Source: Nocardioides sp. SLBN-35 (GTDB taxonomy: Bacteria; Actinomycetota; Actinomycetes; Propionibacteriales; Nocardioidaceae). Taken from it: a stretch of 64,000 bases of DNA. Each line of letters opens with the position of its first letter. The first letter of the stretch is position 1. The stretch covers positions 1,178,001 to 1,242,000 of the forward strand of contig NZ_VFNU01000001.1 in assembly GCF_006715725.1 (NCBI RefSeq), given 5' to 3'. Below the pieces are notes generated by a model that did not search any database, had not been told where the DNA came from, and was given only the letters and a program-made list of their open reading frames with translations. The translations under genes and the position numbers were made by a program. Below, in pieces: positions 36,570-61,566 of the stretch.

Positions 36570-36589
36570 GGTTCACCAAATCGCGGTGA

Positions 36590-39416: not shown

Positions 39417-39431
39417 CGTGCCGCTGTCCGC

Positions 39432-40526: not shown

Positions 40527-40550
40527 GGGACCAAGTACCCGCTTGGTCCC
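40527..40550 (+). promoter_or_regulatory. Operator-like palindrome over the -35 region of the GMD-like gene
   Basis: GGGACCAAG-TACCCG-CTTGGTCCC is a perfect 9-bp inverted repeat. It sits 7 bp upstream of TAGGGT (40558-40563), a -10 that ends 6 bp before the GTG at 40570. The overlap with the -35 region is the classic position for a repressor. Confidence 0.5.
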
Positions 40551-40569
40551 GGCCTACTAGGGTGAGGCC

Positions 40570-41541: not shown

Positions 41542-41547
41542 CGTCGC

Positions 41548-42645: not shown

Positions 42646-42768
42646 GGTGGGGGTCCCCTCTAGCGGAACTCGATGACGGTGGTCGAGCGGGTGCGACCGT
42701 ATCAACCGCAACAACGGCCTGGGCTCGATATGGTCACCCCCGAATCGCCGATCACAGAGGAGTACTCG

Positions 42769-43776: not shown

Positions 43777-43787
43777 GCGCCGGCCGG

Positions 43788-44681: not shown

Positions 44682-44748
44682 GCACGACTCCGGTGGGGGC
44701 GAGGGGCGAGCTGGGTGATGGACGGACGGTAGTACAGCAGGTCGACGC

Positions 44749-45804: not shown

Positions 45805-45812
45805 GGTCAGCG

Positions 45813-45820
45813 ACGATACT
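45813..45820. promoter_or_regulatory. Overlapping opposed -10 elements between GT4 and gmd
   Basis: ACGATACT reads GATACT on the plus strand (45815-45820) and TATCGT on the minus strand (45818-45813). Each ends 8 bp before its start codon (45829 plus; 45804 minus). It is a second case, with 16088, of symmetric leaderless divergent promoters sharing -10 bases. Confidence 0.5.
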
Positions 45821-45828
45821 GTGCCCCC

Positions 45829-46824
45829 GTGACCAAGCGTGCTCTCATCACCGGAATCACCGGTCAGGACGGTTCTTATCTCGCGGAGCTGCTGCTCTCG
45901 AAGGGATACGAGGTGCACGGACTGGTCCGTCGGTCGTCGACCCTGAACCGCAGCCGGATCGATCACCTGCACGGAACCGCGGACCTCCACCTGCACTACG
46001 GCGACCTGACCGACGGTGTCAGCCTCAGCAACCAGCTGCGCGAGATCGAGCCCCACGAGGTCTACAACCTGGGGGCGCAGAGCCACGTCAAGGTGTCCTT
46101 CGAGCTCCCGGAGTACACCGCCTCGACCGACGCCGTCGGCACGCTGCGGCTGCTCGAGGCGATCCGCGCCGCCGGGCTGGACTGCCGGTTCTACCAGGCC
46201 TCCACCTCCGAGATGTTCGGCGCGACCCCGCCGCCGCAGAACGAGTCGACGGTCTTCTACCCGCGTTCGCCGTACGGCGCCGCGAAGCTCTACTCGCACT
46301 GGGTGACTGTCAACTACCGCGAGGCCTACGACCTGTTCGCGGTGTCCGGGATCCTGTTCAACCACGAGTCGCCGCGCCGCGGCGAGAGCTTCGTGACCCG
46401 CAAGATCACGCTCGGCGTCGCCTCGGTCAAGCTCGGCATCGCCGACCACCTCGACCTCGGCAACCTCGAGGCGATCCGCGACTGGGGCTACGCACCCGAG
46501 TACGTCGAGGGCATGTGGCGGATGCTGCAGCAGGACGAGCCGCAGGACTACGTCCTCGCCACCGGCACCGGCACGACGGTGCGCGAGTTCTGCCAGTACG
46601 CCTTCGCGCACGCGGGCCTGAACTGGGAGGACCACGTCCGCTACGACAAGAGCTTCGAGCGCCCCACCGAGGTCGACGCCCTCATCGGCGACGCGTCGAA
46701 GGCCGAGGAGGTCCTCGGCTGGCGCGCGCAGACGCACGCCAAGGGCCTGGCCGAGCTGATGGTGGACGCCGACATCGAGCACCTCGGCCGCCTGGTCCAG
46801 CACCGCAAGGAGATCGACGGATGA
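45829..46824 (+). CDS. gmd: GDP-mannose 4,6-dehydratase
   Basis: A 331-residue Gmd with [64 protein letters not shown] (catalytic Tyr-x-x-x-Lys), [18 protein letters not shown] and [14 protein letters not shown]. It converts GDP-D-mannose to GDP-4-keto-6-deoxymannose, precursor of GDP-fucose, GDP-rhamnose or related sugars. No dedicated GDP-fucose synthase is evident; a nearby SDR may do the next step. Its stop overlaps the FkbM gene. Confidence 0.93.
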
Positions 46825-47711
46825 TGGGCCCCGGCATGGCGGTCTCGACCGCGAAGCGTCGCCTGGGCTGGTTGATCCGCGACCGGTTCCCGTTCCGCCC
46901 GGTCGTGCGTGACGTCCAGGGCGTCACGCTGGTCCTGCCCTGGTCGCACCGGCTGCCCGACTACGCGCGGTGGGGCCCGACGTACGGCCAGAACCTGGTG
47001 GAGCTGGCGCGCCTGGTCGCCGAGTCCTCGCCGCTGACCGTCCTCGACGTCGGTGCCAACGTCGGCGACTCGACCGTGCAGATCCTCAACGCCGCCGACG
47101 GCCGGGTGCTCTGCATCGAGGCGGACCCGGCGTACCTGGAGTTCCTGCACCGCAACGTCGACGGCGACAAGCGGGTCTCGGTCGTCGAGGCGCTGCTGTC
47201 GGTCGACGACGAGCAGACCGCCCGCACCGCTGTCCGCACCGGCGGCACGACCCGGTTCGCCGAGGGCGGCGACGCCGACGCGATGCCGATGGTCTCGCCG
47301 AGCCGGCTGCGCGCCGAGCACCCGGACTTCGACCGGCTGCGGCTGGTCAAGTCCGACACCGACGGGTACGACGTCGTGCTGGTGCCCGCAGTCGCCGAGG
47401 CCTGGGCCGACGCGCACCCGATCCTGTTCTTCGAGTACGACCCCTACCTGACCCGGATCGCCGGCCACGACCCGGCCGCGGTCTGGGCGCGGCTGGCGGA
47501 GCTGGGCTACCGCGACGTCGCGGTCTGGGACAACGGCGCGACGCCGGTCGGCCGCACCACGACCGCCGAGGCGGGCCGCCACGGTGCGGTCCTCGACGTG
47601 GCGAGCAACCAGCGCAACCGGGGCCGCACGTACTGGGACGTCGCCGTCGTGCACGCCGACGACCTCGCCGGACAGGCCGCGATCGAGCAGCTGGTGCCGG
47701 GCCTGATCTGA
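46821..47711 (+). CDS. FkbM-family methyltransferase
   Basis: A 296-residue protein with the FkbM fold: [16 protein letters not shown] (SAM site), [22 protein letters not shown] and FFEYDPYL. FkbM enzymes O-methylate sugars and polyketides. The ATG overlaps the gmd stop, so methylation of a Gmd-derived sugar is plausible. It is followed by a repeat array shared with the 2564 locus. Confidence 0.85.
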
Positions 47712-47754
47712 GCGCCTCGGCGGTCGGGCCCGGGTCGGCTCATCCCGATGCCCC

Positions 47755-47862
47755 GTTGAGTTGCCCCATCCTCGTCGTTGAGTTGCCCCATCCTCGTCGT
47801 TGAGTTGCCGGGAACTCACCGTTGAGATCGGCAACTCAACGGTGCGAAAGCGGCAACTCAAC
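47755..47862. repeat. 22-bp direct-plus-inverted repeat array between convergent genes (family 1, locus B)
   Basis: Three direct 22-bp units beginning GTTGAGTTGCC (47755, 47777, 47799), the core GTTGAGATCGGCAACTCAAC (47821-47840, identical to 2718-2737), and one inverted unit ending CGGCAACTCAAC (47841-47862). It lies between genes ending at 47711 and 47876, again convergent. Copy number differs from locus A (7 direct, 3 inverted). Confidence 0.92.
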
Positions 47863-47875
47863 GGCCGGGGGGCGC

Positions 47876-48529
47876 TCAGCGCCAGGTCACGTCGCGGCGG
47901 ATGATCTTGGCGGGCACCCCGCCGACCAGGCAGCCCGGCTCGGTGATCGACGAGGTGACCACGGACCCGCCGGCGACGATGCAGCCGTCGGCGATCCGCA
48001 CGCCCTTGTAGATCTGGGCGTGGCTGCCGATCCAGACCCGGTCGCCGATCGTGATGTCGGGGGCGGTGCCGCGCTCCTCGGACTCGCCGGCGGCGAGGTG
48101 GCGGTGGAAGTCGTCGTCGAGCAGCTGCACCCGCCAGCCGATCGCGCAGCCCGCGCCGATCGTGATGCCGCTGTTGCTGACCAGCAGGCCGTCGGGCGAG
48201 AAGTAGGTGCGCGCGCCCACCGAGACGGTGGAGTCCGGCCCGATGTCCCAGCGGTTGCCGGTCGCCACGGTCACGTTGCCGCCGAGCCGGAGGCGGCCCC
48301 GGACCCGGATGATCGACCACTCGTGGCCGGTGAGGAAGCCGTAGTAGTTGACGCCGAGGCGCAGCCGGGCGCCCTCGGCGACCTCGATCCGGCGGCGGCC
48401 GACGATCCGGAACCGGCGGCCGACCAGCACCGTGCCGTGCATGCTCAGCCTCGCGAGGAGGGTGCGGACGTACGAGACGCGGAACGGGCCGACGGCCAGC
48501 CCGCGCACGGCGTCGACGCGCTCGCTCAT
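47876..48529 (-). CDS. Hexapeptide-repeat acyltransferase (LbetaH, acetyltransferase type)
   Basis: A 217-residue left-handed beta-helix protein with many [LIV]-G-x4 turns: IGPDSTVSVGARTYFSPDG, ITIGAGCAIGWRV, ITIGDRVWIGSHAQIYKGV and the IVAGGSVVTSSI end, plus a DDDFHRH loop that includes the likely catalytic His. The C-terminal PAKIIR is typical of xenobiotic/NodL/WcaF-type acetyltransferases. It probably acetylates a glycan sugar. Its ATG overlaps the SGNH hydrolase stop. Confidence 0.88.
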   Translation of the reverse strand: MSERVDAVRGLAVGPFRVSYVRTLLARLSMHGTVLVGRRFRIVGRRRIEVAEGARLRLGVNYYGFLTGHEWSIIRVRGRLRLGGNVTVATGNRWDIGPDSTVSVGARTYFSPDGLLVSNSGITIGAGCAIGWRVQLLDDDFHRHLAAGESEERGTAPDITIGDRVWIGSHAQIYKGVRIADGCIVAGGSVVTSSITEPGCLVGGVPAKIIRRDVTWR

Positions 48530-49260
48530 GGCGTGTGCTCGAGGAGCCGGCGCAGGGCTGCCTGGGCGACCTCGCGACCGGCGTCGTTGGGATGGACGCC
48601 GTCGGTGTGGAGCTCGGCGCGGAACCAGCCGTCGTCGTCCGACAGGTCGTCGGTGGCGTCGAGCAGGACGAGCCGCGGCGTCGCCGACGAGGAGGCGGCG
48701 AGCTCCTCGACCAGCTGCTTGCGCAGGACCCCGTGAGTGGCGAGCCGCTCCTCGTTGGTGCCGCGCACGGGGAACGACTCGTGGACGAACTGCTGGGTGG
48801 CCGGCGGGACCGGGACCATCACCACGCCGAGCGGCGAGCCGAGGTCGCGCAGCAGGCCACGGAGCCGGTCGACGTACGCCGCCACGAAGTCCACGTCGCC
48901 ACCGGCCATCACGCGAGGGGCCAGGTGGCAGCGGATGTCGATCTCGCCAAGGCTGAAGATCCACACGACGTCGCGGTTGCCCGGCAGCCGGCCGAGCAGC
49001 CGGGCGGCGCGGTGCAGGGCAGGGGTGAAGTCGTCGCGCGCGACGGAGTACATCAGCCGCGGCCCGAGGTGCCAGACCCAGCACCGCTCGACGGTGCTCC
49101 CCACGCCGAGCGCGGGGAACCGGTCGCCGCCGAAGAAGGCGGCGTTGGACTCGCCCAGCCACACCTGGTCGACCTGGCCCCGGGAGATCGCCCGGGCCAT
49201 CCGCGCGAGCCCGATCCAGGCCAGCAGGTGGGCCCGGACGACCCGGAGCCGGTGCTTCAC
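48526..49260 (-). CDS. SGNH/GDSL hydrolase
   Basis: A 244-residue protein with an N-terminal helical segment, WLGESNAAFF (nucleophile Ser in the block I position), SLGEIDIR and the C-terminal DGVHPND block whose Asp and His complete the triad. SGNH enzymes in polysaccharide loci add or remove acyl groups. Its partner is the hexapeptide acyltransferase encoded directly downstream, and its start overlaps the methyltransferase-like gene upstream. No signal peptide is obvious. Confidence 0.8.
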   Translation of the reverse strand: MKHRLRVVRAHLLAWIGLARMARAISRGQVDQVWLGESNAAFFGGDRFPALGVGSTVERCWVWHLGPRLMYSVARDDFTPALHRAARLLGRLPGNRDVVWIFSLGEIDIRCHLAPRVMAGGDVDFVAAYVDRLRGLLRDLGSPLGVVMVPVPPATQQFVHESFPVRGTNEERLATHGVLRKQLVEELAASSSATPRLVLLDATDDLSDDDGWFRAELHTDGVHPNDAGREVAQAALRRLLEHTP

Positions 49261-50216
49261 GCCCTGCCTCTGGCGCCGACGGCGGTCGCGACCGTGGTCT
49301 CGGTGCCGGTGGTCACGTCGATGACCGGGAGGTCGCCAATGAGTGCGAGGCGCTCGGCGACGCTCCGGTTGCGCGACAGGGTGCCGTCGGGGTTGCGACC
49401 GGTGAGGAACCGGCTCTCGCGGTAGCCGCTCGCGGCGGTCTGCGCGGGCAGGTCGCCGGCGACGTCCTCACGAACGAAGAAGGCGTTGGCGCCGTTGCTG
49501 GCGCACCCGACGAAACGGTAGCCGCGCTGGCTCCCGAGGTGGACCAGGGCGCCCAGCGAGGCACCGAAGTAGAGCTGGGAGAAGTGGGCATCGGAGTTCA
49601 CGAACGCCGGGTCGTAGGGCACGGTGATCGCGGCCTCGGGCCCGAGGAGGGCGTTGTACTCCGCCACGACGATGGCGGGATCGACCACGTCGATCGCGTT
49701 CCACAGCCAGTAGTCGATGCCGTCGACGTCGACGGACAGCAGCCCGATCCGCCCGTTCAGGCCGGCGTCGCCGATCAGCTGGTTGACGTTCTCGCGGGTC
49801 ACGAAGGCCGACACCGGCTCGACGTCGTAGCGCCAGCTGAGCCCGGAGCCCAGGACGAAGCGGACGTGGTCCTCGCCGCCGTCGATCACGACGCCGCGCC
49901 AGTTGTCGTTCTGCAGCAGGAACCGGGTGTTGGACTCGCGGTAGTCGCCGGTCCCGATCTCCACGAAGGTCGTCTCCGCGGGATCGACGGCACGCACCAG
50001 GTGCTGGATGATCCCGTCCTCGCCGAACTGGGAGAACACCTTGAACTCGGCGTCCTGCAGCCGCTGCGGGCGGCGCAGGTCGAGCAGGTGGCTCTCCAGC
50101 CGGCCGATGGCCAGCCGGATCTCGTCCTGCTCGCCGCGCACCCGCTGGATGAGGTGCCGGGCGCCGGGTGCGGAGGCCAGACGTCGCAGGGAGCTGTAGG
50201 CGAAGTCAGACGGCAA
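49257..50216 (-). CDS. FkbM-like methyltransferase-fold protein
   Basis: A 319-residue protein. FSQFGEDGIIQHL, FVEIGTGDYRESNTRFLL and LSVDVDGIDYWLW are seen, resembling the SAM site and acidic strand of FkbM-like proteins found in polysaccharide clusters. The TTG start has GGAGG 4 bp upstream (50221-50225). First in a three-gene operon with SGNH hydrolase and acyltransferase. The substrate is unknown. Confidence 0.75.
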   Translation of the reverse strand: MPSDFAYSSLRRLASAPGARHLIQRVRGEQDEIRLAIGRLESHLLDLRRPQRLQDAEFKVFSQFGEDGIIQHLVRAVDPAETTFVEIGTGDYRESNTRFLLQNDNWRGVVIDGGEDHVRFVLGSGLSWRYDVEPVSAFVTRENVNQLIGDAGLNGRIGLLSVDVDGIDYWLWNAIDVVDPAIVVAEYNALLGPEAAITVPYDPAFVNSDAHFSQLYFGASLGALVHLGSQRGYRFVGCASNGANAFFVREDVAGDLPAQTAASGYRESRFLTGRNPDGTLSRNRSVAERLALIGDLPVIDVTTGTETTVATAVGARGRA

Positions 50217-50319
50217 CGGACCTCCAGGCCTTGGGTGCCGGCCTCGGTCGGCCAGCGATCGTGCGGAGAATAACGGACGGCGGTGGGCGCCGGTGGACGA
50301 ACGGACCGGTCGGCCGTGG

Positions 50320-51714
50320 TCAGGACTCGGGTCCGGCCATGCCGCGCAGGGTCTTGGTGCCCTTGGTCGCCAGCTCCTCCACCAGGGCGATGCTGCGCGG
50401 TCGCCAGGCCGGCGGCAGGTCGGCCACGGCGGCGCGCACCTCCCGCTTGAGCGCCTCGGCGTCGGCTGCCGCGAGCTCGCCGACGGGCACCACCTCGGTC
50501 GCGACGATCGCGCCGGTCAGCCGGTTGGGCCGGCCGAAGACGCGGGCCATCGAGACCCCCGGCAGGGCGGCGATCCGCTCCTCGACAGGCAACGGGTGGA
50601 CCTTGACCCCGCCGACGTTGATCACGTCGGAGTTGCGGCCGCGGAAGAGCACCCGGTCCTCGACCACCTCGGCCAGGTCGCCGGTGGCGACCCAGCCGTC
50701 CTCCTCCGCGGGCGTGTCGGAGCGGTCGCCGGCGTACCCGCTCATCCCGGTGCCCGCGCGCACCCACAGCTGTCCCTCGACCACCCGCAGCAGGCCGTCG
50801 GGGTTCTCCGGACTCCACAGGCTCGCGACCGAGAGCCCCGGGCGTCCGTCGCCGACGGAGGCGATCGAGCCGAACTCGGTGGACGCGTAGACCTGCGAGA
50901 TCCGGGTGTCCGGGAACGCGGCCCGGAGCTCGGCCAGCAGGTCCGGCGAGCTCGCCTCGCCGCCGAGCGTGATCTGCGTCAACGGGGGGAGCGCGACGCC
51001 CCGGCCGCGGGCCTCGGCGAGCAGGAAGCGCCAGTACGTCGGCGTCGCGCTCACGCAGTCGAGCCGCTGGCCGAGCAGGGCGTCGAGGCCGTCGCGCGGC
51101 TGGCGCGGGAAGGGGGCGACCAGGGTGCCCTGGATCGCCATGACGTGCTGGAGCACCTGGATCCCCGCGAACTGCTGGGGGCCGTAGGCCAGCAGCCAGT
51201 GCTGCCCGGGACGAGGCGTGGCGTCGCGCGTGGTGCGGGCGAGCACCGACCAGTCGTGACGGGCGGCCTTCGGCAGGCCGGTGGTGCCGGTGGTGCGGAT
51301 CAGGATCGGCTGATCAGCGGCCTCGGCGGCCTCGGCGGCCTCGGTGACCGGGCCCTCCGCGACCAGCTCGTCGGGCCCGACCACCCGGAGGCCGTCGCCG
51401 GCCAGCTCCTCGCGTCGCGACACGACGACCGTGTGACCCAACGCCTCGGCCTGCTCCCGGAACTGCGCGGCGTCGATGTCGGGCTGGTACTGGCACGGCT
51501 CGGCGCCGACGAGCGCGGCCCCGGCCAGCAGCGTGAGCACCCGGCCGGCGTCCGGCTCGACGACCGCGAACCGGTCGATGCCGCGGGACCGGAGGGCGGC
51601 GCCCACGGACCGGGCGGCGGCCAGCAGGTCGGCGTACGACGTGGTGGCCTCGGTGGTGATCACCGCCGGCTGGTCCGGCACTGCGGCGGCGGCTCGTTCG
51701 AGCAGGCGGATCAT
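50320..51714 (-). CDS. AMP-dependent acyl/aminoacyl ligase (stand-alone adenylation enzyme)
   Basis: A 464-residue ANL-superfamily protein. The P-loop LIRTTGTTGLPKA, QVYASTEFGSIAS, GWVATGDLAEVVEDRVLFRGR and a final KGTKTLRG Lys-rich loop (the catalytic Lys is in this position) give a complete adenylation enzyme, slightly shorter than the usual 500-550. It activates a carboxylic acid as acyl-AMP. It is 139 bp from a divergent condensation-like gene, and an ACP lies nearby, so loading of ACP is plausible. Confidence 0.82.
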   Translation of the reverse strand: MIRLLERAAAAVPDQPAVITTEATTSYADLLAAARSVGAALRSRGIDRFAVVEPDAGRVLTLLAGAALVGAEPCQYQPDIDAAQFREQAEALGHTVVVSRREELAGDGLRVVGPDELVAEGPVTEAAEAAEAADQPILIRTTGTTGLPKAARHDWSVLARTTRDATPRPGQHWLLAYGPQQFAGIQVLQHVMAIQGTLVAPFPRQPRDGLDALLGQRLDCVSATPTYWRFLLAEARGRGVALPPLTQITLGGEASSPDLLAELRAAFPDTRISQVYASTEFGSIASVGDGRPGLSVASLWSPENPDGLLRVVEGQLWVRAGTGMSGYAGDRSDTPAEEDGWVATGDLAEVVEDRVLFRGRNSDVINVGGVKVHPLPVEERIAALPGVSMARVFGRPNRLTGAIVATEVVPVGELAAADAEALKREVRAAVADLPPAWRPRSIALVEELATKGTKTLRGMAGPES

Positions 51715-51853
51715 GGCGCCAGTATGGCCGAGCACCGGCGGACGGGTGCGCCGGATGGGAGGATCGTGACGCTTGTCCCGTGCGAGCGTTGGGCAGGAAG
51801 CCGGTGCTGACCGCACCGGGCGACGAACCGGGCGACGAAGAGGAGTGGCAGGC

Positions 51854-53119
51854 GTGGGCGTGCACCGTCCGATGACGACCGCGGAGAAGTACTACACCTT
51901 CCTCGACCACCAGTGGCCGAGCAACGTGATGATCTCCGCGGACCTCGCGCGCTGCTTCGAGCCCGCCGCCGTCGCTGCCGTGTGGGACACGTTCCGCGAG
52001 CGCCGGATCCTCGGTCGCGCGGTCGCCACCGAGGACCTCACGCTCGCCGATCCCGGCGTCCGGCCCGGCCACTTCACCGCCCGTGACCTCCCCGTCGCCG
52101 CGTGGGACGCGGTCTTCGACGAGGAGGCCACGGTGCGCCACGAGCTCGGCCTGGCCCCGCGTCTGCTCTACCTGCGCAGCCCCGCCGAGGGCCGCTCCCG
52201 GCTGATCCTGCTCGGCCACCACGCCCTGCTCGACGGACGGATCGGGCTGGGCGAGGTGCAGTGGCTGGTCCGCCTCCTCGACGGCCAGGACGTGCCCGAG
52301 CAGCAGGAGCTGTCGAGCCCGCCGCCGGTGGCCGGGCCGACGTACCCCTGGCAGCAGGACCGTACGGCGATGCTCGACCTGCTCCGCTCCATCCGGGCCC
52401 GCAACGTCGAGCTCGGCGCGCCCGGCCCGGAGTGGTGGCCGGAGACGTCGGTGCCGTGCCGGCCGCGGCTCCGGCAGCTCGTCCTCGACGCCGAGCCGGC
52501 CGCCGAGCTCCTGGCCACCGGACGCCGGCACGGCTCCAGCGTCTTCGCCACGGTCGCCGCCGCGTGGATGGGAATCGTGGCCCGCGAGCTGTGCGGGGCC
52601 GATCGCGCGACCGTCCAGCTCGCGGTGCCGGCCGACCTGTCGACGCCGAGCCCGACCCCGAACGCACCGACCGCCATGTCGGTCGCCGTCGTCTCGCGCC
52701 CCTTCCGCGTCGACGCCGCCGAGCCGTGGGGACTCGCGGGGGAGATGGTCGCGACCGTCCGCGAGGCGCTGGCCCGTGGCGAGGGTGAGCTCTTCTTCCA
52801 GCTCACCCGGACCGAGAAGGTCTCCGACCTCGACACCGGCCGTGACCTGGTGGCCGCCGCGCTGAGCGCGGGCCCGCCCTGCCTGGTCGTCAGCAACATG
52901 GGCGTGATCGACCCGGGCACCGACCCGGAATGGCTCACCTTCGTGCAGGGGCAGCTCGCGCCGGCGCCCAACCAGGTGGTGTTCGTGGCGACGCTCAGCT
53001 ATCGCGGCCGGCTGATCCACACCATCGCGACCGACGACAACCGCATCGGTGAGGAGCGCACCGCTCGCCTCGTCGACTCCTACCTCGCCTTCCTCGGCGA
53101 CGTCGCGGCGGGCCGGTGA
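51854..53119 (+). CDS. Condensation-domain-like acyltransferase (PapA/WS-type fold)
   Basis: A 421-residue protein with the condensation/acyltransferase active-site motif HHxxxDG, seen as LGHHALLDGRIG, and a later VSNMGVIDPG segment like the C-terminal part of PapA-type acyltransferases. Such enzymes transfer acyl groups from CoA or a carrier protein to hydroxyl or amine acceptors. The GTG at 51854 has GAGGAG 8 bp upstream; the later ATG at 51872 is an alternative. Its stop overlaps the flippase start. Confidence 0.75.
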   Translation: MGVHRPMTTAEKYYTFLDHQWPSNVMISADLARCFEPAAVAAVWDTFRERRILGRAVATEDLTLADPGVRPGHFTARDLPVAAWDAVFDEEATVRHELGLAPRLLYLRSPAEGRSRLILLGHHALLDGRIGLGEVQWLVRLLDGQDVPEQQELSSPPPVAGPTYPWQQDRTAMLDLLRSIRARNVELGAPGPEWWPETSVPCRPRLRQLVLDAEPAAELLATGRRHGSSVFATVAAAWMGIVARELCGADRATVQLAVPADLSTPSPTPNAPTAMSVAVVSRPFRVDAAEPWGLAGEMVATVREALARGEGELFFQLTRTEKVSDLDTGRDLVAAALSAGPPCLVVSNMGVIDPGTDPEWLTFVQGQLAPAPNQVVFVATLSYRGRLIHTIATDDNRIGEERTARLVDSYLAFLGDVAAGR

Positions 53120-54420
53120 GCGAGCCGGCAACCGACTCGGGTGACGCGGCCGCGCCTGCGGGGACGGCGCGCGGGGCCGGAAGCCGGCTCAGCCTGATCA
53201 CCGTCGACCAGGCGCTGTCGAGCCTGTCGAACATCGCTGCGCTGATCTGGGTCGCGCACGCCTTCGACCCGGTCGACTTCGGGCGGTTCAGCCTGATCGT
53301 GATGGTCTACACGGTGGCGCAGGTGGCCGTGCGCAGCCTGATCTCGACCACGGTGGTCGTGCACCCCGAGGAGGCCGACCAGCGGCCGCGGACGATCCTG
53401 GCCTCCGCGAGCGTGACCGGCCTGGTCGCCGGCGTCCTCACCGGCCTGGCCGGTGCCGTGCTGCTGGCGTTCGGCAGTGCCCTGGCGTGGCCGGTGCTGG
53501 CGCTCGCCGTACCCATGCCGTTGCTGGTCGTCCAGGACGTCGGCCGCTACCTCGGCATCGCGCGCCGCCAGCCCGGGCGCGCCGTGGCGATCGACGCGCT
53601 CTGGCTGGTGCTCATGATCGCCGGCTTCGGTACGGCGCTCGCCGCCGACCTCGACGGACTCGTCTGGCCGATCCTGATGTGGAGCTGGTCGGGCGGCGTC
53701 TCGGGGCTGTGGGTCTTCGCCCAGTACGGCCTGCCCGGCCGCGACGGCGTCGCCTGGGTCCGCGAGCACTGGTCGTTCTCGTGGCGCTCGCTGGTCAGCG
53801 GGGTCGCCAGCAGCGGCATCACCCTGCTCTTCGCCTCGCTGATGACGCTGTTCAGCTCGGCGCTCGCCGTGGCGGCCTACCGCGCGGCGACCCTGTTGGC
53901 CGCGCCCAGCACCGCGGTCCAGCTGGCCGTCTCCACGGCGGCGGCCACCGACATCGCCCGTGACCGGGCCGACGAGGGCGCCTGGTGGGGCCACGTCCGC
54001 AAGGCGATCGCGATCTGCCTGGCCGTCGGCGTCGTCAACCTCGTGGTCCTGGTGTTCCTCCCGGACCCGATCGGGTGGGCGGTCCTCGGCGAGTCGTGGG
54101 ACATCGTCCAGCCGCTGATGCTGGCCATCAGCTGCAAGGTGCTCCTCATGGCCGGACAGAGCGGCCTGCGGGCGGCCCTGATCGGCCGGCACCGGATCCA
54201 GACCGCCATGGTCACCGACATCGTGGCGCTGGTGCTGATCGGCGTGTGCATGGTCGCCGGCGCCGTGCTCGGCGACGCGGAGGGCGCACTGTGGGCGATG
54301 GCGGTCGGCACCGCCGTGTCCACCGCCTGCTGGTGGATCGCGATCGCCTGGGACGGGCGGGCGCCCCGCGGGCGCCACGTCGCCCGCCGGGGTGACGTGG
54401 TCGCCGCGCGGCAGGGCTGA
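53116..54420 (+). CDS. Polysaccharide flippase, Wzx/MATE-like
   Basis: A 434-residue polytopic protein with about 12 transmembrane segments and no soluble domain, starting with an amphipathic LSLITVDQALSSLSNIAALIW. The profile is that of Wzx-type oligosaccharide flippases, which move lipid-linked repeat units across the membrane. The GTG overlaps the previous stop, so export and acylation genes are coupled. It is convergent with the ACP/ketoreductase operon. Confidence 0.82.
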   Translation: MSEPATDSGDAAAPAGTARGAGSRLSLITVDQALSSLSNIAALIWVAHAFDPVDFGRFSLIVMVYTVAQVAVRSLISTTVVVHPEEADQRPRTILASASVTGLVAGVLTGLAGAVLLAFGSALAWPVLALAVPMPLLVVQDVGRYLGIARRQPGRAVAIDALWLVLMIAGFGTALAADLDGLVWPILMWSWSGGVSGLWVFAQYGLPGRDGVAWVREHWSFSWRSLVSGVASSGITLLFASLMTLFSSALAVAAYRAATLLAAPSTAVQLAVSTAAATDIARDRADEGAWWGHVRKAIAICLAVGVVNLVVLVFLPDPIGWAVLGESWDIVQPLMLAISCKVLLMAGQSGLRAALIGRHRIQTAMVTDIVALVLIGVCMVAGAVLGDAEGALWAMAVGTAVSTACWWIAIAWDGRAPRGRHVARRGDVVAARQG

Positions 54421-54453
54421 CGACCCGGCGGCCGTCGCGTCCGCCGCCCCGGA

Positions 54454-55191
54454 TCAGGCGGTCAGGCCACCGTCGACCACCAGCACCTGGCCGGTGATCC
54501 AGTCGTTGCGCTCGTCGACGAGGAACTCCACCGCGCGAGCGATGTCCTCGGGCTCGCCGAGGCGACCGGCCGGCGTACGGCGGACGATCTGGTTGAGCTG
54601 GCCGTCGTCGAGGCCGTGGCTCATCTCGGTCTTCAGGTAGCCCGAGGCGATGCTGTTGACGGTGATCCTGCGTGAGCCGACCTCGCGGGCCAGGCCGCGG
54701 GTGAAGCCGTCGAGCGCGGCCTTGGTGGCGCCGTAGACGCTCAGGCCGCGGTAGCCGGTCAGGCCCGTGATCGAGGAGATGTTGACGATCCGGCCGCCGC
54801 CGTGGGCGAGCATGTTGCGCACCACCTGCTTGGTGAGGTGGATGGTCGCCTTCAGGTTGAGGTCGATCACCGTGTCGGAGTCGTCGTCGCTGAACAGCGC
54901 CAGGATGCCGTCGCGTGCGACGCCGGCGTTGTTGACGAGCACGTCGACCGAGGCCCACTCGGCCACGACGTCCTTGAAGAAGCGCGTGCAGTCCTCGCGG
55001 TCGGCGAGGTCGGCCTTGCGGAACAGGAACCGGCCGTCGTACGCCGGATCGGCCTGCCACGCGCGGACCGCGTCGGTCTCGCTGCGGGCACAGGTCGCGA
55101 CCCGGTCACCGGCGTCGAGGAAGTGCTGGACGATGCCCTCGCCCAGGCCTCGACTGCCGCCGGTGATGACGACCGTGCGGGGTGCGGTCAT
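54454..55191 (-). CDS. SDR oxidoreductase, 3-oxoacyl-ACP reductase-like
   Basis: A 245-residue classical SDR: TGGSRGLG cofactor motif, NNAG, SSITG Ser, and YGATK (Tyr-x-x-x-Lys), with a C-terminal LVVDGG. It resembles FabG, the NADPH-dependent ketoreductase acting on ACP-bound 3-oxoacyl chains. It overlaps the ACP gene by four bases, which supports an ACP-bound substrate rather than a sugar. Confidence 0.88.
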   Translation of the reverse strand: MTAPRTVVITGGSRGLGEGIVQHFLDAGDRVATCARSETDAVRAWQADPAYDGRFLFRKADLADREDCTRFFKDVVAEWASVDVLVNNAGVARDGILALFSDDDSDTVIDLNLKATIHLTKQVVRNMLAHGGGRIVNISSITGLTGYRGLSVYGATKAALDGFTRGLAREVGSRRITVNSIASGYLKTEMSHGLDDGQLNQIVRRTPAGRLGEPEDIARAVEFLVDERNDWITGQVLVVDGGLTA

Positions 55192-55445
55192 GCGGACGCG
55201 GCGGTCGCGTCGGCGTAGAACGCCACGATGTCCGCGACGGTCTCCGGCAGCAGGCCGGCGCCGAACGGGTCGGTGCCGAACTCGTCCTCGAGGATCGCGG
55301 ACAGCTCCGCGGTCTCGAGCGAGTCCAGGCCGAGCCCGTCGTCGCCGTGCAGCGCGGCGTCCAGCGCCACGGTCTGCTGCTCGCGGTCCGAGCGCTCCAG
55401 CAGCTCGGTGACGATGGTGACGATCCTGGGCTCAATGTCGTTCAT
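55188..55445 (-). CDS. Acyl carrier protein
   Basis: An 85-residue acidic helical protein with the phosphopantetheine-attachment motif GLDSLETAEL (Ser in DSL). It is encoded between a hexapeptide acyltransferase (8 bp away) and the FabG-like reductase (overlap). It is distinct from housekeeping ACPs, which sit in fatty-acid operons, so it probably serves a specialised acyl group. Confidence 0.9.
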   Translation of the reverse strand: MNDIEPRIVTIVTELLERSDREQQTVALDAALHGDDGLGLDSLETAELSAILEDEFGTDPFGAGLLPETVADIVAFYADATAASA

Positions 55446-55453
55446 GGTGACCT

Positions 55454-56155
55454 CTACTCAGATGGGGGGTTCGCAGGGCCAACGACGTCACGGGGTCCTT
55501 GGTAACGGGCGCGGTTGTAGACGTGCCTCGGAATGTCGATCGGAGCGAGCCGTCGAGCCGGTACGCCGCCGTGCAGGTGGGCGCCCTTGGCCTCCTGCCC
55601 GGTCCACGTCGTGGAGCCGGCCGCGATCAGCGCGCCCTCGCCGATGACGGTGCCCGGCAGCATGGTGCAGGAGGTCGCCACCACCGCCCGGTCGCCGATG
55701 GTGACCGGGTCGAGGATGACGCCGCCGTTGGTCGGGTCGAACGCGTGGGAGAGCAGGGTCGAGCGGATGCCGGTGACCCAGGTGTTGTCGCCCAGCACGA
55801 TCCCGCCGCCGCAGTCGAGGTAGTGCTGGCTGATGATGTGCGAGTCGTCGCCCATCCGCAGGGTGCGCAGGTTCTCGGTCTGGGTGGCGCCGGGCTCGTA
55901 GCCGGAGTCGCCCACGACCTGGTTGAACAGCATGATCCGGCAGCCGACACCCAGCTTCACCAGCCGCAGGTCGCGGAACAGGTTGAAGTGGTGGATGAGC
56001 GAGCCCGCGCCGAGCTCGAAGCGGTCGACCCGCCGCACCAGGCAGATGCCGACGACCGCCGTCGGGTGCACCTGGTGGCCGAGCCGGTTGAGCAGGCGGA
56101 TCTTGAGGCCACTCGGCGGGAGGAGGAACACCAATGTCGTGAGAGCCTGACGCAC
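55454..56155 (-). CDS. LbetaH acyltransferase of the polysaccharide locus
   Basis: A 233-residue protein with a beta-helix: IVLGDNTWVTGIRS, VTIGDRAVVATSCTMLPG, VIGEGALIAAGSTT and a GVPARRL end. The helix is typical of maltose/xenobiotic acetyltransferases. No ribosome site is seen before the GTG; TAGGGT on the minus strand (56168-56163) ends 7 bp upstream, so it is likely leaderless. Co-operonic with ACP and reductase. Confidence 0.82.
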   Translation of the reverse strand: MRQALTTLVFLLPPSGLKIRLLNRLGHQVHPTAVVGICLVRRVDRFELGAGSLIHHFNLFRDLRLVKLGVGCRIMLFNQVVGDSGYEPGATQTENLRTLRMGDDSHIISQHYLDCGGGIVLGDNTWVTGIRSTLLSHAFDPTNGGVILDPVTIGDRAVVATSCTMLPGTVIGEGALIAAGSTTWTGQEAKGAHLHGGVPARRLAPIDIPRHVYNRARYQGPRDVVGPANPPSE

Positions 56156-56223
56156 GCGGGCGACCCTATCCCGGATCCGCCGACGGAATGGGGCATCCCG
56201 CGGCGCGCACTCGGCGGGCGCCG

Positions 56224-56229
56224 TATCCT
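56224..56229 (+). promoter_or_regulatory. -10 element, leaderless promoter of the sulfotransferase gene
   Basis: TATCCT ends 7 bp before the GTG at 56237 and no ribosome site is visible, as for the divergent acyltransferase gene. Confidence 0.5.
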
Positions 56230-56236
56230 CACGCCC

Positions 56237-57298
56237 GTGGTCGTTCTTGCCAAGGCGTCCGGAGACCAGGTCTCCCTCCAGTGCGACGTCTGTGTCCCCC
56301 CGGTCCTCACCGTCGGACCGCCCGATCGGCTCAAGCGCCTGGGCTGGACGCTGCGCTCGGCCGGGCAGCCGGTCGACGCCTGCCTCAACTGCACCGCGCA
56401 CCTCGCGCCGCGCCAGCGGGTGGCGCGCGCCGACGCCGTACCGACGACCCCGGACCCCGCGCGGATGCCGAACGTCATCGTGATCGGTGCGATGAAGGGC
56501 GGGACGACGAGCATGCACAACTACCTCGACGTCCACCCCGACATCGCGGTGTCCACGGAGAAGGAGATGCGCTTCTTCTCCGACCCCGGCGCTGCGGACT
56601 GGGTGGGCCGCTACCAGCAGCACTTCCCCGAGGGCACCCGGTTCCGGGTGGAGTCCTCGCCGCACTACACGAAGTTCCCCGTCGTACCGGGCGTGGTCGA
56701 CCGGATGGCCGACCTGGTGCCCGACGCGCGGCTGATCTACCTGGTGCGGGACCCGGTGGAGCGCCTCGTCGCCGAGTACGTCGAGCAGGTGCAGTGGCAT
56801 GCCGCCCACCGCAGCCTCGACGAGGAGGTGGCCGACGCCGACGACCCGGCCCACGCGCTGATGGCCTCGAGCCGCTACGCCACACAGCTGGCGGAGTTCC
56901 TGCGCCGCTTCCCCGCCGAGCAGGTCCTGGTGCTCGACCTCGCCGACCTCGGGGCGGACGTGGTCGGCACGATGGCCCGCGTCTTCGCCTTCCTCGGCCT
57001 CGATGCACCCGCCGCGAGCGCCGAGGACTACGGCCGGCACAACACCCGCGACGAGAAGTACCAGGTGCCCGGCTGGCTGCTGCGGCTGCGGAAGGGGCCG
57101 CTGCTGCGGGCCTTCCGCAAGCTGCCCGCCGGGCCGCGCCGGATGATCAGCATGGCGGCGTGGCGCCGCTCCGGGAACCTGGTCGAGCGGCCCACGCTGA
57201 CGCCGGCGACCGAGGCCCGGCTCCGCGAGCTGCTGGCGCCCGAGGCGCAGCGGCTGCGGGAGCTGACGGGGGAGCCGTTCGCGAGCTGGAGCGTGTGA
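56237..57298 (+). CDS. Sulfotransferase with N-terminal Cys-pair domain
   Basis: A 353-residue protein. The catalytic region has the 5'-phosphosulfate-binding IGAMKGGTTSMHNYLD, ESSPHYTKFP and the 3'-phosphate-binding YLVRDPVERLVAEY, as in PAPS-dependent sulfotransferases. The first 70 residues carry CDVC and CLNC, a possible zinc ribbon rarely seen in this family. It would sulfate a glycan, lipid or small molecule. The GTG start is leaderless-type. Confidence 0.85.
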   Translation: MVVLAKASGDQVSLQCDVCVPPVLTVGPPDRLKRLGWTLRSAGQPVDACLNCTAHLAPRQRVARADAVPTTPDPARMPNVIVIGAMKGGTTSMHNYLDVHPDIAVSTEKEMRFFSDPGAADWVGRYQQHFPEGTRFRVESSPHYTKFPVVPGVVDRMADLVPDARLIYLVRDPVERLVAEYVEQVQWHAAHRSLDEEVADADDPAHALMASSRYATQLAEFLRRFPAEQVLVLDLADLGADVVGTMARVFAFLGLDAPAASAEDYGRHNTRDEKYQVPGWLLRLRKGPLLRAFRKLPAGPRRMISMAAWRRSGNLVERPTLTPATEARLRELLAPEAQRLRELTGEPFASWSV

Positions 57299-57314
57299 GC
57301 GGAACCGCGGGTGT

Positions 57315-58364
57315 TCAGGCGTCCCTGCGCTTGAACAGGTAGAACCGGTCGTGCAGGTCGATCAGCTCGCGCAGCTCGTCGGACTGGTGGATCGGCCGGT
57401 CGTCGACCAGCTCGTAGCCACGGTCGAGGACGTCCTGGCGGAAGGGCTCCATCGACCCGTCGGCCTCGGTGCTGCGCAGCTCGTCGGGGGTGTTCGGGAC
57501 GATGAGCAGCCACGGGATGTCCCGCTCGGCGATCCGGTCCAGCCACCAGCGGATCGCGTCGTGCGAGCACTCCGAGAAGCTGTGGATGTTGACCGCGACG
57601 TCGTAGCGCTCGCCGAGCTTCTCGTGCTCGTCGAGCCGGACCACCCGCACCGCGTCGGGCAGCTCGCGGAAGCGGGTGTAGTAGGAGCACAGGAAGGTCG
57701 AGGTGGCCACCCCGTCGATGCAGTCGTACGCCGCCAGGTTGGGCAGCGCGGTCGACATCCGGTGGGCCAGGCGGCCGTAGCCGGCGCCGATGTCGAGGAC
57801 CCGCAACCCCTCGATGGACGCGAGCCCCATCTGGTCGTCGAGGTAGTTGATCTCGTTGATGCTGTCGAGCAGGTCGCGGCTGATCGGCGGGCGCTGGCCG
57901 AAGGTGAACGTGAACGCGCCGAACAGGCCGTCCTCGTCCAGCTTGGCGAACAGGCCGAGGCGGTCGCGCTCGAGGACGTCGAGCATCGCCAGGTACATCC
58001 GGATCCGTGCCGAGCTGCCGAGCTGGCGGAACTGCCACACGTAGGCGTTGTCGCCGCGGAACCAGGCGAGCGAGAGGTTCTTCTTGAGGAAGCTCTGGCG
58101 CCACTGCGTGTGGGCGGCCGCAGCGACTCCCAGGGCGTCGTACGCCGCCTCGAGCTCGTCGAGCGCCGGGTTGTCCGGCCGCAGCTCGTGCTCGGCGCCC
58201 GCGGGGAGCGGGACGTCGTCGTTGTGGGTGATCTCGACGTAGCGCCGGCTCTCGTCGTTCATCCGGGTGATGAGGAACCCGGCGCGCGCCGCGGCGACCT
58301 TGGTGCGCTGGGTGGCCCAGCGGCGGACCATGGACGGGTAGGACGAGGGGGAGTTCGGGGGCAC
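57315..58364 (-). CDS. Putative sugar O-methyltransferase
   Basis: A 349-residue protein with LDIGAGYGRLAHRM (SAM motif I), an HSFSECSHDAIRWWL segment and a long N-terminal helical part; these are features of the putative sugar O-methyltransferase family found in polysaccharide clusters. I chose the GTG at 58364 because TACAGT (minus strand, 58378-58373) ends 8 bp upstream; the next ATG is at 58331 and an upstream in-frame start at 58442 would overlap the divergent gene. Confidence 0.78.
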   Translation of the reverse strand: MPPNSPSSYPSMVRRWATQRTKVAAARAGFLITRMNDESRRYVEITHNDDVPLPAGAEHELRPDNPALDELEAAYDALGVAAAAHTQWRQSFLKKNLSLAWFRGDNAYVWQFRQLGSSARIRMYLAMLDVLERDRLGLFAKLDEDGLFGAFTFTFGQRPPISRDLLDSINEINYLDDQMGLASIEGLRVLDIGAGYGRLAHRMSTALPNLAAYDCIDGVATSTFLCSYYTRFRELPDAVRVVRLDEHEKLGERYDVAVNIHSFSECSHDAIRWWLDRIAERDIPWLLIVPNTPDELRSTEADGSMEPFRQDVLDRGYELVDDRPIHQSDELRELIDLHDRFYLFKRRDA

Positions 58365-58434
58365 GGTCGGCAACTGTAATGGCGGTCGAGCCGATCTGGT
58401 CGAATGTCTGCGGAACTCGGAGGAGGCACCTGCG

Positions 58435-59463
58435 TTGTCCACATCGATGAGTCAATCCACCCCCGTGGCCCTGGTGGTCTTCAACCGACCCCACCTCACC
58501 GAGCAGACGCTCGCCGCGATCCGTGCCGCCGCGCCCCAGCAGCTCTTCGTGATCGCCGACGGGCCGCGCGAGGGCCGGCCCGACGACGAGGAGCTGTGCG
58601 CGCGGACGCGGGCGCTGATCGACACCGTCGACTGGCCGTGCGAGGTGCACCGCCGCTTCGCGCCGCGCAACCTGGGGCTCGAGGCCAATGTCGAGCTCGG
58701 GCTGGACTGGGTCTTCGCGCAGACCGACGCCGCCATCGTGCTGGAGGACGACTGCCACCCCGACCCGTCGTTCTTCCCGTACGTCGAGGAGCTGCTCGAG
58801 CGCTACCGCGACGACCCGCGGATCTGGCAGGTGTCGGGCAGCGGCATGGGCGTGCCGGAGCGGCTCTTCGCCGGTGACAGCTATGCGTTCACGGCGTGGG
58901 CGAGCGTGTGGGGCTGGGCGACCTGGGCGGACCGCTGGCAGCGGCACCGCGCGATCTTCACCCGCGACCACGCGCCGAGCGACGCCCCGGTGCGCACCCT
59001 CGCCGCGACCCAGCAGCCGGGACACCTGGTCACCCGGTCCGGCCAGCAGCACTTCGCCGACGCGGCGCAGTCCGGCGACACGGTGATCCATGGCTGGGAC
59101 AAGCACTGGTGGCTCACCATGCTCACCCTCGGTGGGCTGGCGCTCTCCCCGTCGCGCAACCTCGTCGAGAACGTCGGCTGGGGCGAGGACGCGACCCATG
59201 GCGCCGCGGCCGGCAAGCGTGACCACGGCGCCGGCGCGATGGACTTCCCACTGCGGCACCCGGCCGAGGTCGCCGTCAACGTCGAGGTGGAGCGCGAGCT
59301 CGAGCTGGTCCTGAGCCGGGTCGGCGGTCGCGCGGCGATGTTCGCCCGGCGGTTCGTGAAGTCGCCGCAGGTACGACGCGTGGCGCGGGTCGCGGTCAAC
59401 AGCCGCCCGGCGCAGGCGGTGCAGCGCTTCGTCAGCCGCTCGCGGGACCGGGTGGCGTCGTGA
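58435..59463 (+). CDS. GT-A fold glycosyltransferase (paralogue of 42769)
   Basis: A 342-residue protein with VALVVFNRPHLTEQTL, LFVIADGPR, IVLEDDCHPDPSFF, LLERYRDD and WASVWGWATWADRW, matching the 42769 protein block by block. The TTG start has CGGAGGAGG 8 bp upstream; the ATG at 58447 would be too far. It opens a three-gene operon with the GT61 and methyltransferase genes. Confidence 0.8.
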   Translation: MSTSMSQSTPVALVVFNRPHLTEQTLAAIRAAAPQQLFVIADGPREGRPDDEELCARTRALIDTVDWPCEVHRRFAPRNLGLEANVELGLDWVFAQTDAAIVLEDDCHPDPSFFPYVEELLERYRDDPRIWQVSGSGMGVPERLFAGDSYAFTAWASVWGWATWADRWQRHRAIFTRDHAPSDAPVRTLAATQQPGHLVTRSGQQHFADAAQSGDTVIHGWDKHWWLTMLTLGGLALSPSRNLVENVGWGEDATHGAAAGKRDHGAGAMDFPLRHPAEVAVNVEVERELELVLSRVGGRAAMFARRFVKSPQVRRVARVAVNSRPAQAVQRFVSRSRDRVAS

Positions 59464-60704
59464 GCCTGCCCGCCTGGCTCAGGCCGTGGTGGCCGCTGTT
59501 CAAGCGGCTGCACCGCGCGGCGACCTTCGTCCTCGGCTGCCTGTTCCGGGTGCTCTCGCGGCTGCTCGGCAGCCGCGGCGTGCCGGTTCGGGCCACGGAG
59601 CGCTCGAGCGACACCGCAGACCGGGAGCCGGGAGTCGTCGTCCTGCACCCGGGCCGCGCGGAGCAGCCGCTGCCCCGCCCGGCCACCGCGGGCGTGCCCG
59701 CCGGGCACTGGCTCTTCGCGGCCGTGCACACGACCACCGAGCCCACGGCCGTGGTGCCCGCGGTCGACCTCCCGGCGACCTTCGTGCTCGAGGTCGCCGG
59801 CGGCCGGCTGAGCGGTGACTACGCCGCGACGACCACGCCGGGCAAGGTCCTCGACCACGAGACGAGCACGTACTTCGGCGTCGAGGACTGGCGCGAGCAC
59901 CCGATCTTCCTGCGGCCCACCCTGGGGCCGACCGAGCACGTCCCGGGCACGGTGCTGAGCCTGACCACCCGCGGCACGTCGGTGAACTACTACCACTTCC
60001 TGTACGACGCGATCGGCCGGCTCGCGGTCCTCGAGGACGCCCTGCCGCACGCCCTCGCGCAGGCGGACGCGGTCGTCGTACCGCACCGGACGAGGTACCA
60101 GAAGCAGCTGCTCGAGCTGGCCGGCGTGACGGCCCGCCTGATCGAGCCCGAGCGCGGCCGGACCGTGTCGGCCGACCGGCTGCTCGTGCCCAGCAACCCG
60201 AACTGGGCGCTCCAGGCGCCGCCCGCGACCGTGCGCTGGCTGCGCGAGCACCTGCCGCCCACGCCCGGCGCCGACGGACCGCGCCGGCTCTACGTCACCC
60301 GCGGCGACACGCCCCGGACCCGGCGCTACGTGCAGGAGGCCGAGCTGTGGCCCGAGCTCGAGCGCCGCGGCTTCGTCCGGATCGACCCGGGCAGCCACAC
60401 CGTTCAGGAGCAGATCGACCTGTTCCACGGCGCGGAGGTGGTCGTCTCGCCGCACGGCGCCGGGCTGTCCAACCTCACCTTCTCCCGGCCCGGAGTGCGG
60501 GTGCTCGAGATGTTCGCGTCGACGTACGTCCACCTCGGGCTGTGGTCGATCTGCCAGGCCGTCGACGCCGACTACCGCTACCTTGTTGGGGACGGCCCGA
60601 GCGGGGGACCGGGGCGCAACTCCGGGGTGCTCGACGACGTCTCCGTGCCACCGCGGACGGTGCTCGACCTCGTCGACGACATGCTGAGGGGGCTCCACCA
60701 GTGA
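59460..60704 (+). CDS. Glycosyltransferase family 61 protein
   Basis: A 414-residue protein with an N-terminal hydrophobic stretch, then the GT61/DUF563 blocks NYYHFLYD, RLYVTRGD, VSPHGAGLSNLTF and VLEMF. GT61 contains xylosyl- and N-acetylglucosaminyl-type transferases in eukaryotes and is widespread in bacterial polysaccharide loci. The GTG overlaps the previous stop. The N-terminal hydrophobic segment suggests membrane association. Confidence 0.85.
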   Translation: MSLPAWLRPWWPLFKRLHRAATFVLGCLFRVLSRLLGSRGVPVRATERSSDTADREPGVVVLHPGRAEQPLPRPATAGVPAGHWLFAAVHTTTEPTAVVPAVDLPATFVLEVAGGRLSGDYAATTTPGKVLDHETSTYFGVEDWREHPIFLRPTLGPTEHVPGTVLSLTTRGTSVNYYHFLYDAIGRLAVLEDALPHALAQADAVVVPHRTRYQKQLLELAGVTARLIEPERGRTVSADRLLVPSNPNWALQAPPATVRWLREHLPPTPGADGPRRLYVTRGDTPRTRRYVQEAELWPELERRGFVRIDPGSHTVQEQIDLFHGAEVVVSPHGAGLSNLTFSRPGVRVLEMFASTYVHLGLWSICQAVDADYRYLVGDGPSGGPGRNSGVLDDVSVPPRTVLDLVDDMLRGLHQ

Positions 60705-61495: not shown

Positions 61496-61510
61496 GCGCC
61501 ACGACGACGA

Positions 61511-61545
61511 ACGAGCCGCCGGGGACCAAGTCCCCGGCGGCTCGT
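61511..61545. terminator. Bidirectional terminator hairpin
   Basis: ACGAGCCGCCGGGGAC (61511-61526) pairs perfectly over 16 bp with 61530-61545 around a 3-nt loop. It lies between convergent genes ending at 61495 and 61567. Only a few T residues follow on the plus strand. Confidence 0.75.
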
Positions 61546-61566
61546 GCTGTTGATGCGTGGTGGAGG

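Follow-up and report, generated by a model that had tools for sequence, protein, structure and literature searches.

A predicted ligase, acyl carrier protein, and reductase unit that recurs among surface glycan genes of Nocardioides and other bacteria

INTRODUCTION

Acyl modules that depend on an acyl carrier protein (ACP) have been described in several bacterial glycan loci. Here we compare them with a set of genes from the soil actinobacterium Nocardioides sp. SLBN-35, located in a stretch of 64,000 nucleotides (positions 1178001 to 1242000 of a single-contig genome of 5.37 Mb; 72% G+C) that is called the window below. The set encodes a stand-alone adenylate-forming ligase (LIG), a dedicated ACP, and a FabG-type reductase (FABG), together with a condensation-superfamily protein (COND), a hexapeptide acyltransferase (HEXA), and a Wzx-type flippase. 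An earlier note on this DNA had regarded the combination of NRPS/PKS-type chemistry with Wzx/Wzy export as the most novel system in the window; the accessible parts of three reports already describe ACP-dependent acyl modules in glycan loci (PMC3927599, PMC6519341, PMC7874193).

The viosamine island of Pseudomonas syringae pv. tabaci (vioS, vioR, acp, vioB) resembles the window in that a dedicated ACP, a FabG-type reductase, and a transferase are encoded in a glycosylation island; a vioR mutant lost modified viosamine, the acyl group being 3-hydroxybutyryl (PMC3927599, accessible text). In that island the acyl group is made by the ketoacyl-ACP synthase III (KAS III) VioS, no ligase is described among the seven genes in the accessible text, and the acceptor is an amino sugar on flagellin (PMC3927599), whereas the window has a ligase, no ketosynthase that we could find, and no aminotransferase. 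The wfpC-wfpG genes for the O-polysaccharide of Flavobacterium psychrophilum likewise include an ACP and a ketoacyl-ACP reductase, with an acyltransferase predicted to use acyl-ACP, but they also include two ketosynthases for a 3,5-dihydroxyhexanoyl group, and the word ligase is absent from the main text of the report (PMC6519341). In make-up, orf1 to orf3 of the Aeromonas group II flagellin glycosylation island come close, with an ACP, a 3-oxoacyl-ACP reductase, and an AMP-dependent synthetase; that island differs in having luxE and luxC, and the accessible part of that report mentions no COND-like gene and determines no function for orf1 to orf3 (PMC7874193). A table for Yersinia ruckeri O1 lists a phosphopantetheine protein, an AMP-dependent synthetase, and a 3-oxoacyl-ACP reductase under consecutive locus tags, followed by a polysaccharide deacetylase (PMC5552943). 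Neither a ketosynthase nor a luxE or luxC family member was detected among the 29 genes of the window that were scanned (31381 to 61495, with a 91-residue frame at 34874 to 35149 lying outside the scan), and the DegT aminotransferase family (PF01041), found at 12 places in the genome, had none within the window.

More distant parallels exist outside these loci. The nonribosomal peptide synthetase (NRPS) module for alpha-keto acids (A-KR-T-C) is one fused polypeptide, whereas its counterparts in the window are four separate genes. In depsipeptide synthetases, adenylation-ketoreductase-carrier modules convert 2-oxo acids to lactyl-type groups. In DltA-DltC D-alanylation, a stand-alone ligase charges a stand-alone carrier, together with the MBOAT protein DltB and DltD and without a reductase; the window shares the ligase and the carrier but has a reductase and no MBOAT among the 29 genes scanned, the only part of the genome searched for it. 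COND shares fold and HxxxD motif, at 18% identity, with the PapA5/AzeD branch of the condensation superfamily, whose partners are polyketide synthase (PKS) or NRPS lines. In the literature searched, the scope of which left out most subscription journals, we found no function assigned to a ligase-ACP-reductase set. New here are the strict three-gene unit and its spread, the lack of a detectable ketosynthase in the locus of the window, the exchange of COND for a methyltransferase, and the association with SGNH-like and hexapeptide proteins.

RESULTS

Conservation of the ligase, ACP, and reductase genes

The reading frames of the five genes named in the earlier note and of wzx (50320 to 56155) proved to be intact, and Pfam families could be assigned to all of them (Table 1). 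HEXA, ACP, and FABG are encoded on the minus strand, with an 8-bp gap between HEXA and ACP and a 4-bp overlap between ACP and FABG. COND and the flippase are encoded by overlapping genes on the plus strand that stand between LIG and ACP-FABG, and LIG is divergent from COND.

The distribution of these genes was determined in 116 genomes (the own genome and 115 relatives), with only the best candidates per genome being scored (e.g., 14 ligases and 23 reductases) and with E-value limits (1e-30, 1e-75) that were picked after earlier results had been seen. The LIG family (at least 50% identity) was present in 12 genomes including the own one, the next ligase matches reaching at most 40%. Strong ACP matches (E < 1e-14) were found in the same 12 genomes, with two weak matches (1.6e-4 and 9e-4) in others, and FABG at E ≤ 1e-75 was present in exactly the same 12, even though FABG-like reductases abound (the own genome alone has 93 matches). 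The coincidence of the three genome-wide distributions puts the core gene set far beyond chance.

In a second survey, an alignment of LIG was used to scan the contigs of named genomes, which yielded 71 loci: 53 family loci (L073 to L125) and 18 loci with remote ligases that served as controls. The two surveys are not independent, as seven of the 53 loci (L073, L074, L076, L097, L100, L101, and L107) belong to the 116-genome set. By six-frame search, which replaced a tally of called genes that had missed some calls (ACP 42/46, reductase 46/46), LIG, ACP, and reductase were all present in 50 of the 53 family loci. The exceptions were L090 and L120, where the contig starts within the ligase gene, and L123, which has an ACP but no reductase. 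No ACP was found at the 18 control loci, and a weak reductase match was found at four. The family occurs in Nocardioides, Pimelobacter, Aeromicrobium, Marmoricola, Jatrophihabitans, Smaragdicoccus, Paraconexibacter, and other actinobacterial metagenome-assembled genomes (MAGs), and more remotely in Chloroflexota and Proteobacteria; in the ligase-plus-reductase tree the rows closest to the window were from Nocardioides, Pimelobacter, and one Propionibacteriales MAG. These results support the view, based on sequence comparison, that LIG, ACP, and reductase are a conserved unit usually located among glycan genes. The co-occurrence in relatives on which the earlier note had staked its five-gene module thus holds for these three genes but not for COND (11/53 loci) or for a close HEXA homologue (13/53 loci).

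The order ACP-LIG-FABG on one strand was found in 34 of the 53 loci, and HEXA-ACP-FABG-LIG with COND, the S-adenosylmethionine-dependent methyltransferase MT21, or nothing before LIG in 12. By individual layout, we counted MT21-ACP-LIG-FABG (16 loci), ACP-LIG-FABG (12), HEXA-ACP-FABG-COND-LIG (COND reversed in 5 and forward in 4), ACP-LIG-FABG with a reversed MT21 (3), HEXA-ACP-FABG-MT21-LIG (2), LIG-FABG (2), and nine more layouts of one locus apiece. Second ACP genes occur in three loci (L068, 7049 to 7285; L103, 4116 to 4364; L087, 1554 to 1769). In L116 (Nocardioides sp. TF02-7), COND and LIG seem to be fused in a frame of 1,064 residues, but we rejected this fusion, because segments of COND, LIG, and a following gene are intermingled there in several frames; the COND and ligase genes of this locus (8600 to 12100) are broken by several frame changes, probably sequence errors, although the genome is recorded as complete.

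Residues with established catalytic roles are retained in the three proteins: the motif TTG(T/S)TG and K454 are conserved in LIG, Ser42 of the LDSL motif of ACP is invariant (12/12), and S139/S140, Y153, and K157 of FABG are kept in 12 of 12 sequences. FABG exceeded the cutoff of the NCBIfam FabG subfamily PRK12826.1-2 (224.8 bits; cutoff, 222) but not that of TIGR01830 (228.5 bits; cutoff, 297.75), and its top match in the Protein Data Bank (PDB) was MupS (4yxf, 2.2e-71). The sequence of LIG does not single out a substrate: its PDB relatives were diverse, and its match to the 2-oxoglutaryl-ACP ligase AmcH (NCBIfam) scored 65.7 bits, far below the cutoff of 370.

Table 1 Features of the window discussed in the text
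Feature	Position	Strand	Basis and remarks
LIG, stand-alone adenylate-forming ligase, 464 aa, proposed acid:ACP ligase (core)	50320..51714	-	AMP-binding 1.8e-24, AMP-binding_C 1.8e-7
FABG, FabG-type short-chain reductase, 245 aa (core)	54454..55191	-	adh_short_C2 4.9e-58
ACP, dedicated acyl carrier protein, 85 aa (core)	55188..55445	-	PP-binding 1.4e-4, 22.5 bits (cutoff, 20.8)
COND, free-standing PapA/condensation-superfamily protein, 415 aa	51872..53119	+	PapA_C 6.2e-13; alternative start GTG 51854
HEXA, left-handed beta-helix (hexapeptide) acyltransferase, beside ACP	55454..56155	-	Hexapep 1.1e-6
SGNH/GDSL-like protein tracking COND	48526..49260	-	Lipase_GDSL_2 5.8e-6, 27.4 bits, under the cutoff of 32.9
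Wzx-type flippase	53116..54420	+	Polysacc_synt_3 1.7e-5, 24.7 bits (cutoff, 23); overlaps COND by 4 bp
Surrounding Wzx/Wzy-type glycan locus	35244..61600		Families by profile; Wzz-tyrosine kinase gene extends to 62961

Alternation of COND with a methyltransferase

COND belongs to the PapA_C family (49.1 bits; curated cutoff, 30), and H117 and D121 of its HHxxxDG motif are invariant (12/12). In a profile search of the PDB it matched 8s6l (1.4e-17) and PapA5 (1q9j, 8.2e-10). Its AlphaFold model (pLDDT 87.6, pTM 0.87) was again nearest to 8s6l (Z 37.4, 2.9 Å over 397 residues, 18% identity), ahead of NRPS condensation domains (Z of at most 28.3) and PapA5 (25.1). The 8s6l entry is entitled AzeD dehydratase, whereas its molecule name is transferase. 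COND was strong in 6 of the 12 core-bearing genomes, with two weak matches (1.1e-4 and 7.6e-4) elsewhere. The earlier note had seen the condensation-like protein as coupled to the flippase; COND adjoins wzx at only 3 of the 13 COND loci available (the window, L073, and L074), which rules out an obligatory coupling.

MT21 was found at 25 of the 53 family loci and COND at 11, and none had both. In the 116 genomes, MT21 (E ≤ 1e-30) was present in 4 of the 12 with the core and in none of the others, and never together with COND. The tally omits an MT21-like match of 38 bits in L108. The two genes also occupy the same places: between FABG and LIG we found COND in L101 and L105 and MT21 in L091 and L103, and before ACP we found COND in L079 and MT21 in 16 loci. 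The tree used to follow this exchange held 50 ligase-plus-reductase rows (13 with COND, 27 with MT21, and 10 with neither), eight rows having been excluded because they are cut by contig ends (L090 and L120) or remote (L117, L118, L119, L122, L123, and L124). On the best tree, with rows carrying neither gene ignored, COND and MT21 alternate at least six times, and the starred branches force at least four COND changes. The plain probability of finding no overlap on 50 rows was 3e-6. Among the nearest PDB entries of MT21 are MitM and a D-glucose O-methyltransferase, and the cyclopropane synthase and C-methyltransferase families match it too; it is probably O-methylating.

Partners of the hexapeptide and SGNH type

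The PDB matches of HEXA include QdtC (3fs8, 2.4e-11). Close homologues (at least 56% identity) were found in 7 of the 12 core-bearing genomes, and weaker ones in two more of these and in three other genomes. At all 13 HEXA-bearing loci among the 53, the HEXA homologue adjoins an ACP gene. In L068, HEXA lies apart from the main ACP, yet the second ACP of this locus is directly beside it. This neighborhood favors the use of acyl-ACP by HEXA, although not decisively.

An SGNH-like gene was detected in the window and, with the window not counted, at 9 of the 12 COND loci (L069, L073, L074, L076, L077, L080, L101, L105, and L116), compared with 1 of the 45 other loci. Within the clade in which COND and MT21 alternate, the gene is present in the COND loci L069, L101, L105, and L116 and missing from the COND locus L108 (a short contig), from the MT21 loci L068, L091, and L103, and from L106, which has neither COND nor MT21. 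The SGNH-like protein may handle the same acyl ester as COND.

Glycan genes around the core

The locus surrounding the core in the window encodes a Wzy_C-like protein, an initiating sugar transferase, glycosyltransferases, a GDP-mannose 4,6-dehydratase (Gmd), methyltransferases, a sulfotransferase, and a Wzz-tyrosine kinase. Its assignment to the Wzx/Wzy type is based on the flippase, the initiating transferase (Bac_transf, 2.8e-34), and the chain-length kinase (TIGR01007, above the cutoff); the Wzy candidate (35244 to 36569) scored 29.3 bits with Wzy_C, under the cutoff of 31.7, and two Glycos_transf_2 matches were also under their cutoffs. Gmd exceeded its curated cutoff.

At least two glycan-like genes were found nearby at 39 of the 53 family loci and at none of the 18 controls, a comparison that is weak at three control loci without a called gene. 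With two profiles, a Wzx-like gene was detected within the flank of 29 of the 53. On plasmid p3 of Azospirillum brasilense Sp7 (L144), pseI and a large flagellin gene flank adjacent ACP-LIG-SDR (short-chain dehydrogenase/reductase) genes homologous to the core, and glycosyltransferase genes are found in the region. Compared with the best-matching family members, the identities are 47% for ACP, 44% for LIG, and 52% for FABG. This arrangement differs from the window in that a KAS III gene follows the triad and neither COND nor MT21 is annotated. The region is a probable flagellin glycosylation island that holds both a ligase and a ketosynthase. Outside a glycan context, a plasmid of Burkholderia stagnalis (L146) has a ligase-SDR pair followed by one small gene and a 6.3-kb PKS-like gene that is annotated as SDR family.

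DISCUSSION

Our results lead us to propose, with moderate confidence, that the genes form an accessory acyl-tailoring cassette that serves a surface glycan and works without a ketosynthase; all chemical steps, the substrate, and the acceptor are predictions. As LIG, ACP, and reductase form a conserved unit usually found among glycan genes, loading, reduction, and attachment of an acid, as suggested in the earlier note, is the best reading and is partly supported, with the loading of ACP and the attachment to the repeat unit before export as predicted steps. The locus showed no ketosynthase, which makes it improbable that the acyl chain is assembled on site; LIG would supply a ready acid. A reductase makes sense only with a keto group, which we infer to be present in this acid. 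LIG would thus adenylate a small free keto acid and load it on the dedicated holo-ACP, and FABG would reduce the ACP-bound keto group to a hydroxyl. Two kinds of substrate are conceivable: 3-oxo acids, of which acetoacetate would yield 3-hydroxybutyryl, and 2-oxo acids, of which pyruvate would yield lactyl. The 3-hydroxyacyl kind is the one known from modified viosamine (PMC3927599). COND would then tailor the hydroxyacyl-ACP by O-acylation or dehydration, a role that MT21 would take in sister loci, or else transfer the acyl group. Still in the cytoplasm, a transferase, most likely HEXA, would attach the acyl group to a hydroxyl of a sugar, either in the lipid-linked repeat unit or in its nucleotide sugar, and Wzx would export the acylated unit afterwards. 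The lack of a DegT aminotransferase in the window makes an ester likelier than an amide in this strain, and together with the score of Gmd it makes an O-linked acyl group on a 6-deoxyhexose a reasonable guess.

Several observations weigh against this proposal. The best PDB relatives of LIG are CoA ligases, so that LIG could yield CoA thioesters rather than ACP thioesters. Fourteen of the 53 family loci have fewer than two glycan-like genes; among these, Pfam detected a flippase together with a hexapeptide protein in L117, and a glycosyltransferase together with an MBOAT protein in L118. L075 (8362 to 12135) and L079 (8267 to 12111) combine COND with the triad, have no hexapeptide gene, and show almost no glycan-type neighbors in the flank: the neighbors in L075 are homologues of the window genes at 15033 to 20389, a transporter region that we take to be pst-like, and those in L079 are MoeA, YkuD, CtaG, and one nucleotidyltransferase. 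The cassette therefore need not act on a glycan everywhere. Hexapeptide genes of the types searched were missing by both profile search and tblastn from 9 of the 53 loci (11 by profile, tblastn detecting the gene in L108 and L113), and HEXA may be an ordinary acetyl-CoA enzyme, hexapeptide proteins being common in glycan loci. Finally, a tree-aware sign test of the exclusion between COND and MT21 was not significant (four independent pairs, median p of 0.25).

That a methyltransferase can take the slot of COND would be explained most simply by two alternative treatments of the new hydroxyl, and this alternation, together with a nearest solved relative entitled dehydratase, suggests that COND may tailor the ACP-bound acyl group and not transfer it. 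A competing explanation that retains a good share of plausibility, although we do not favor it, is that COND moves the hydroxyacyl group from ACP to the sugar hydroxyl and HEXA is an ordinary O-acetyltransferase. The PapA_C assignment and the HHxxxDG motif agree with this, PapA5 being an enzyme that transfers mycocerosyl groups, as do the five strong COND matches besides the window, which are all in core-bearing genomes, and the pairing of COND with the core in L075 and L079 without any hexapeptide gene. However, the gene that is always beside ACP is HEXA and not COND, and a methyltransferase, with which COND alternates, would not move an acyl group to a sugar.

Dehydration of the hydroxyacyl-ACP by COND to an unsaturated acyl group would be consistent with the methyltransferase exchange, but as a specific assignment we regard it as rather unlikely. 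Dehydrating condensation domains are known in the superfamily according to the accessible part of one report (PMC10880069), and 8s6l is the nearest structure by both fold and profile. However, dehydratase is the title of that entry while its molecule name is transferase, its identity to COND is 18%, and the literature searched held nothing on the activity of 8s6l.

It is less probable still that the cassette is merely co-located with glycan genes and belongs to the pathway of a free lipid, a signal, or a small molecule. The mostly transport or housekeeping surroundings of L075 and L079 and the Burkholderia plasmid pair near a PKS-like gene would fit such a role, whereas the glycan-like neighbors at 39 of 53 loci argue against it, as do the similar triads of Azospirillum, Aeromonas, and Y. 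ruckeri, the last two as listed in the accessible parts of the reports, which are located in glycosylation islands or next to polysaccharide genes. An accidental presence of housekeeping MenE, FabG, and AcpP genes, which the resemblance of LIG to o-succinylbenzoate-CoA ligases, among others, might suggest, is refuted by the absence of the set from 104 of 116 genomes, and the own genome has carrier proteins at three other places.

Taking the tailoring cassette as our preferred interpretation, one may speculate further, and more tentatively, that a dissociated NRPS-like mini-module (the ligase corresponding to A, ACP to T, and FabG to KR) became a portable acyl-cap factory for surface glycans in several phyla, with an exchangeable last gene, COND (often with the SGNH-like protein) or a methyltransferase, treating the hydroxyl. 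A one-gene swap between the two would then change the surface chemotype. Capsule-type loci of actinobacteria carry the triad repeatedly, and genes of similar make-up in proteobacterial flagellin islands are, in the accessible reports, only listed without a function. If the proposal is correct, sequence alone would suffice to predict unusual acyl groups of surface glycans, whether hydroxyacyl, methoxyacyl, or capped in another way, and the triad offers a stand-alone ligase, carrier, and reductase as enzymes. The natural exchanges of COND and MT21 in near-identical gene orders make the role of the condensation-type protein directly testable.

Two other features of the window were noted. The genes at 46821 to 47711 and 49257 to 50216 are presumably FkbM-like; the former had weak Pfam matches and the latter had none. 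A glutamate-synthase-like protein (32332 to 34661) is encoded near a GlnR-type regulator where the glycan locus ends.

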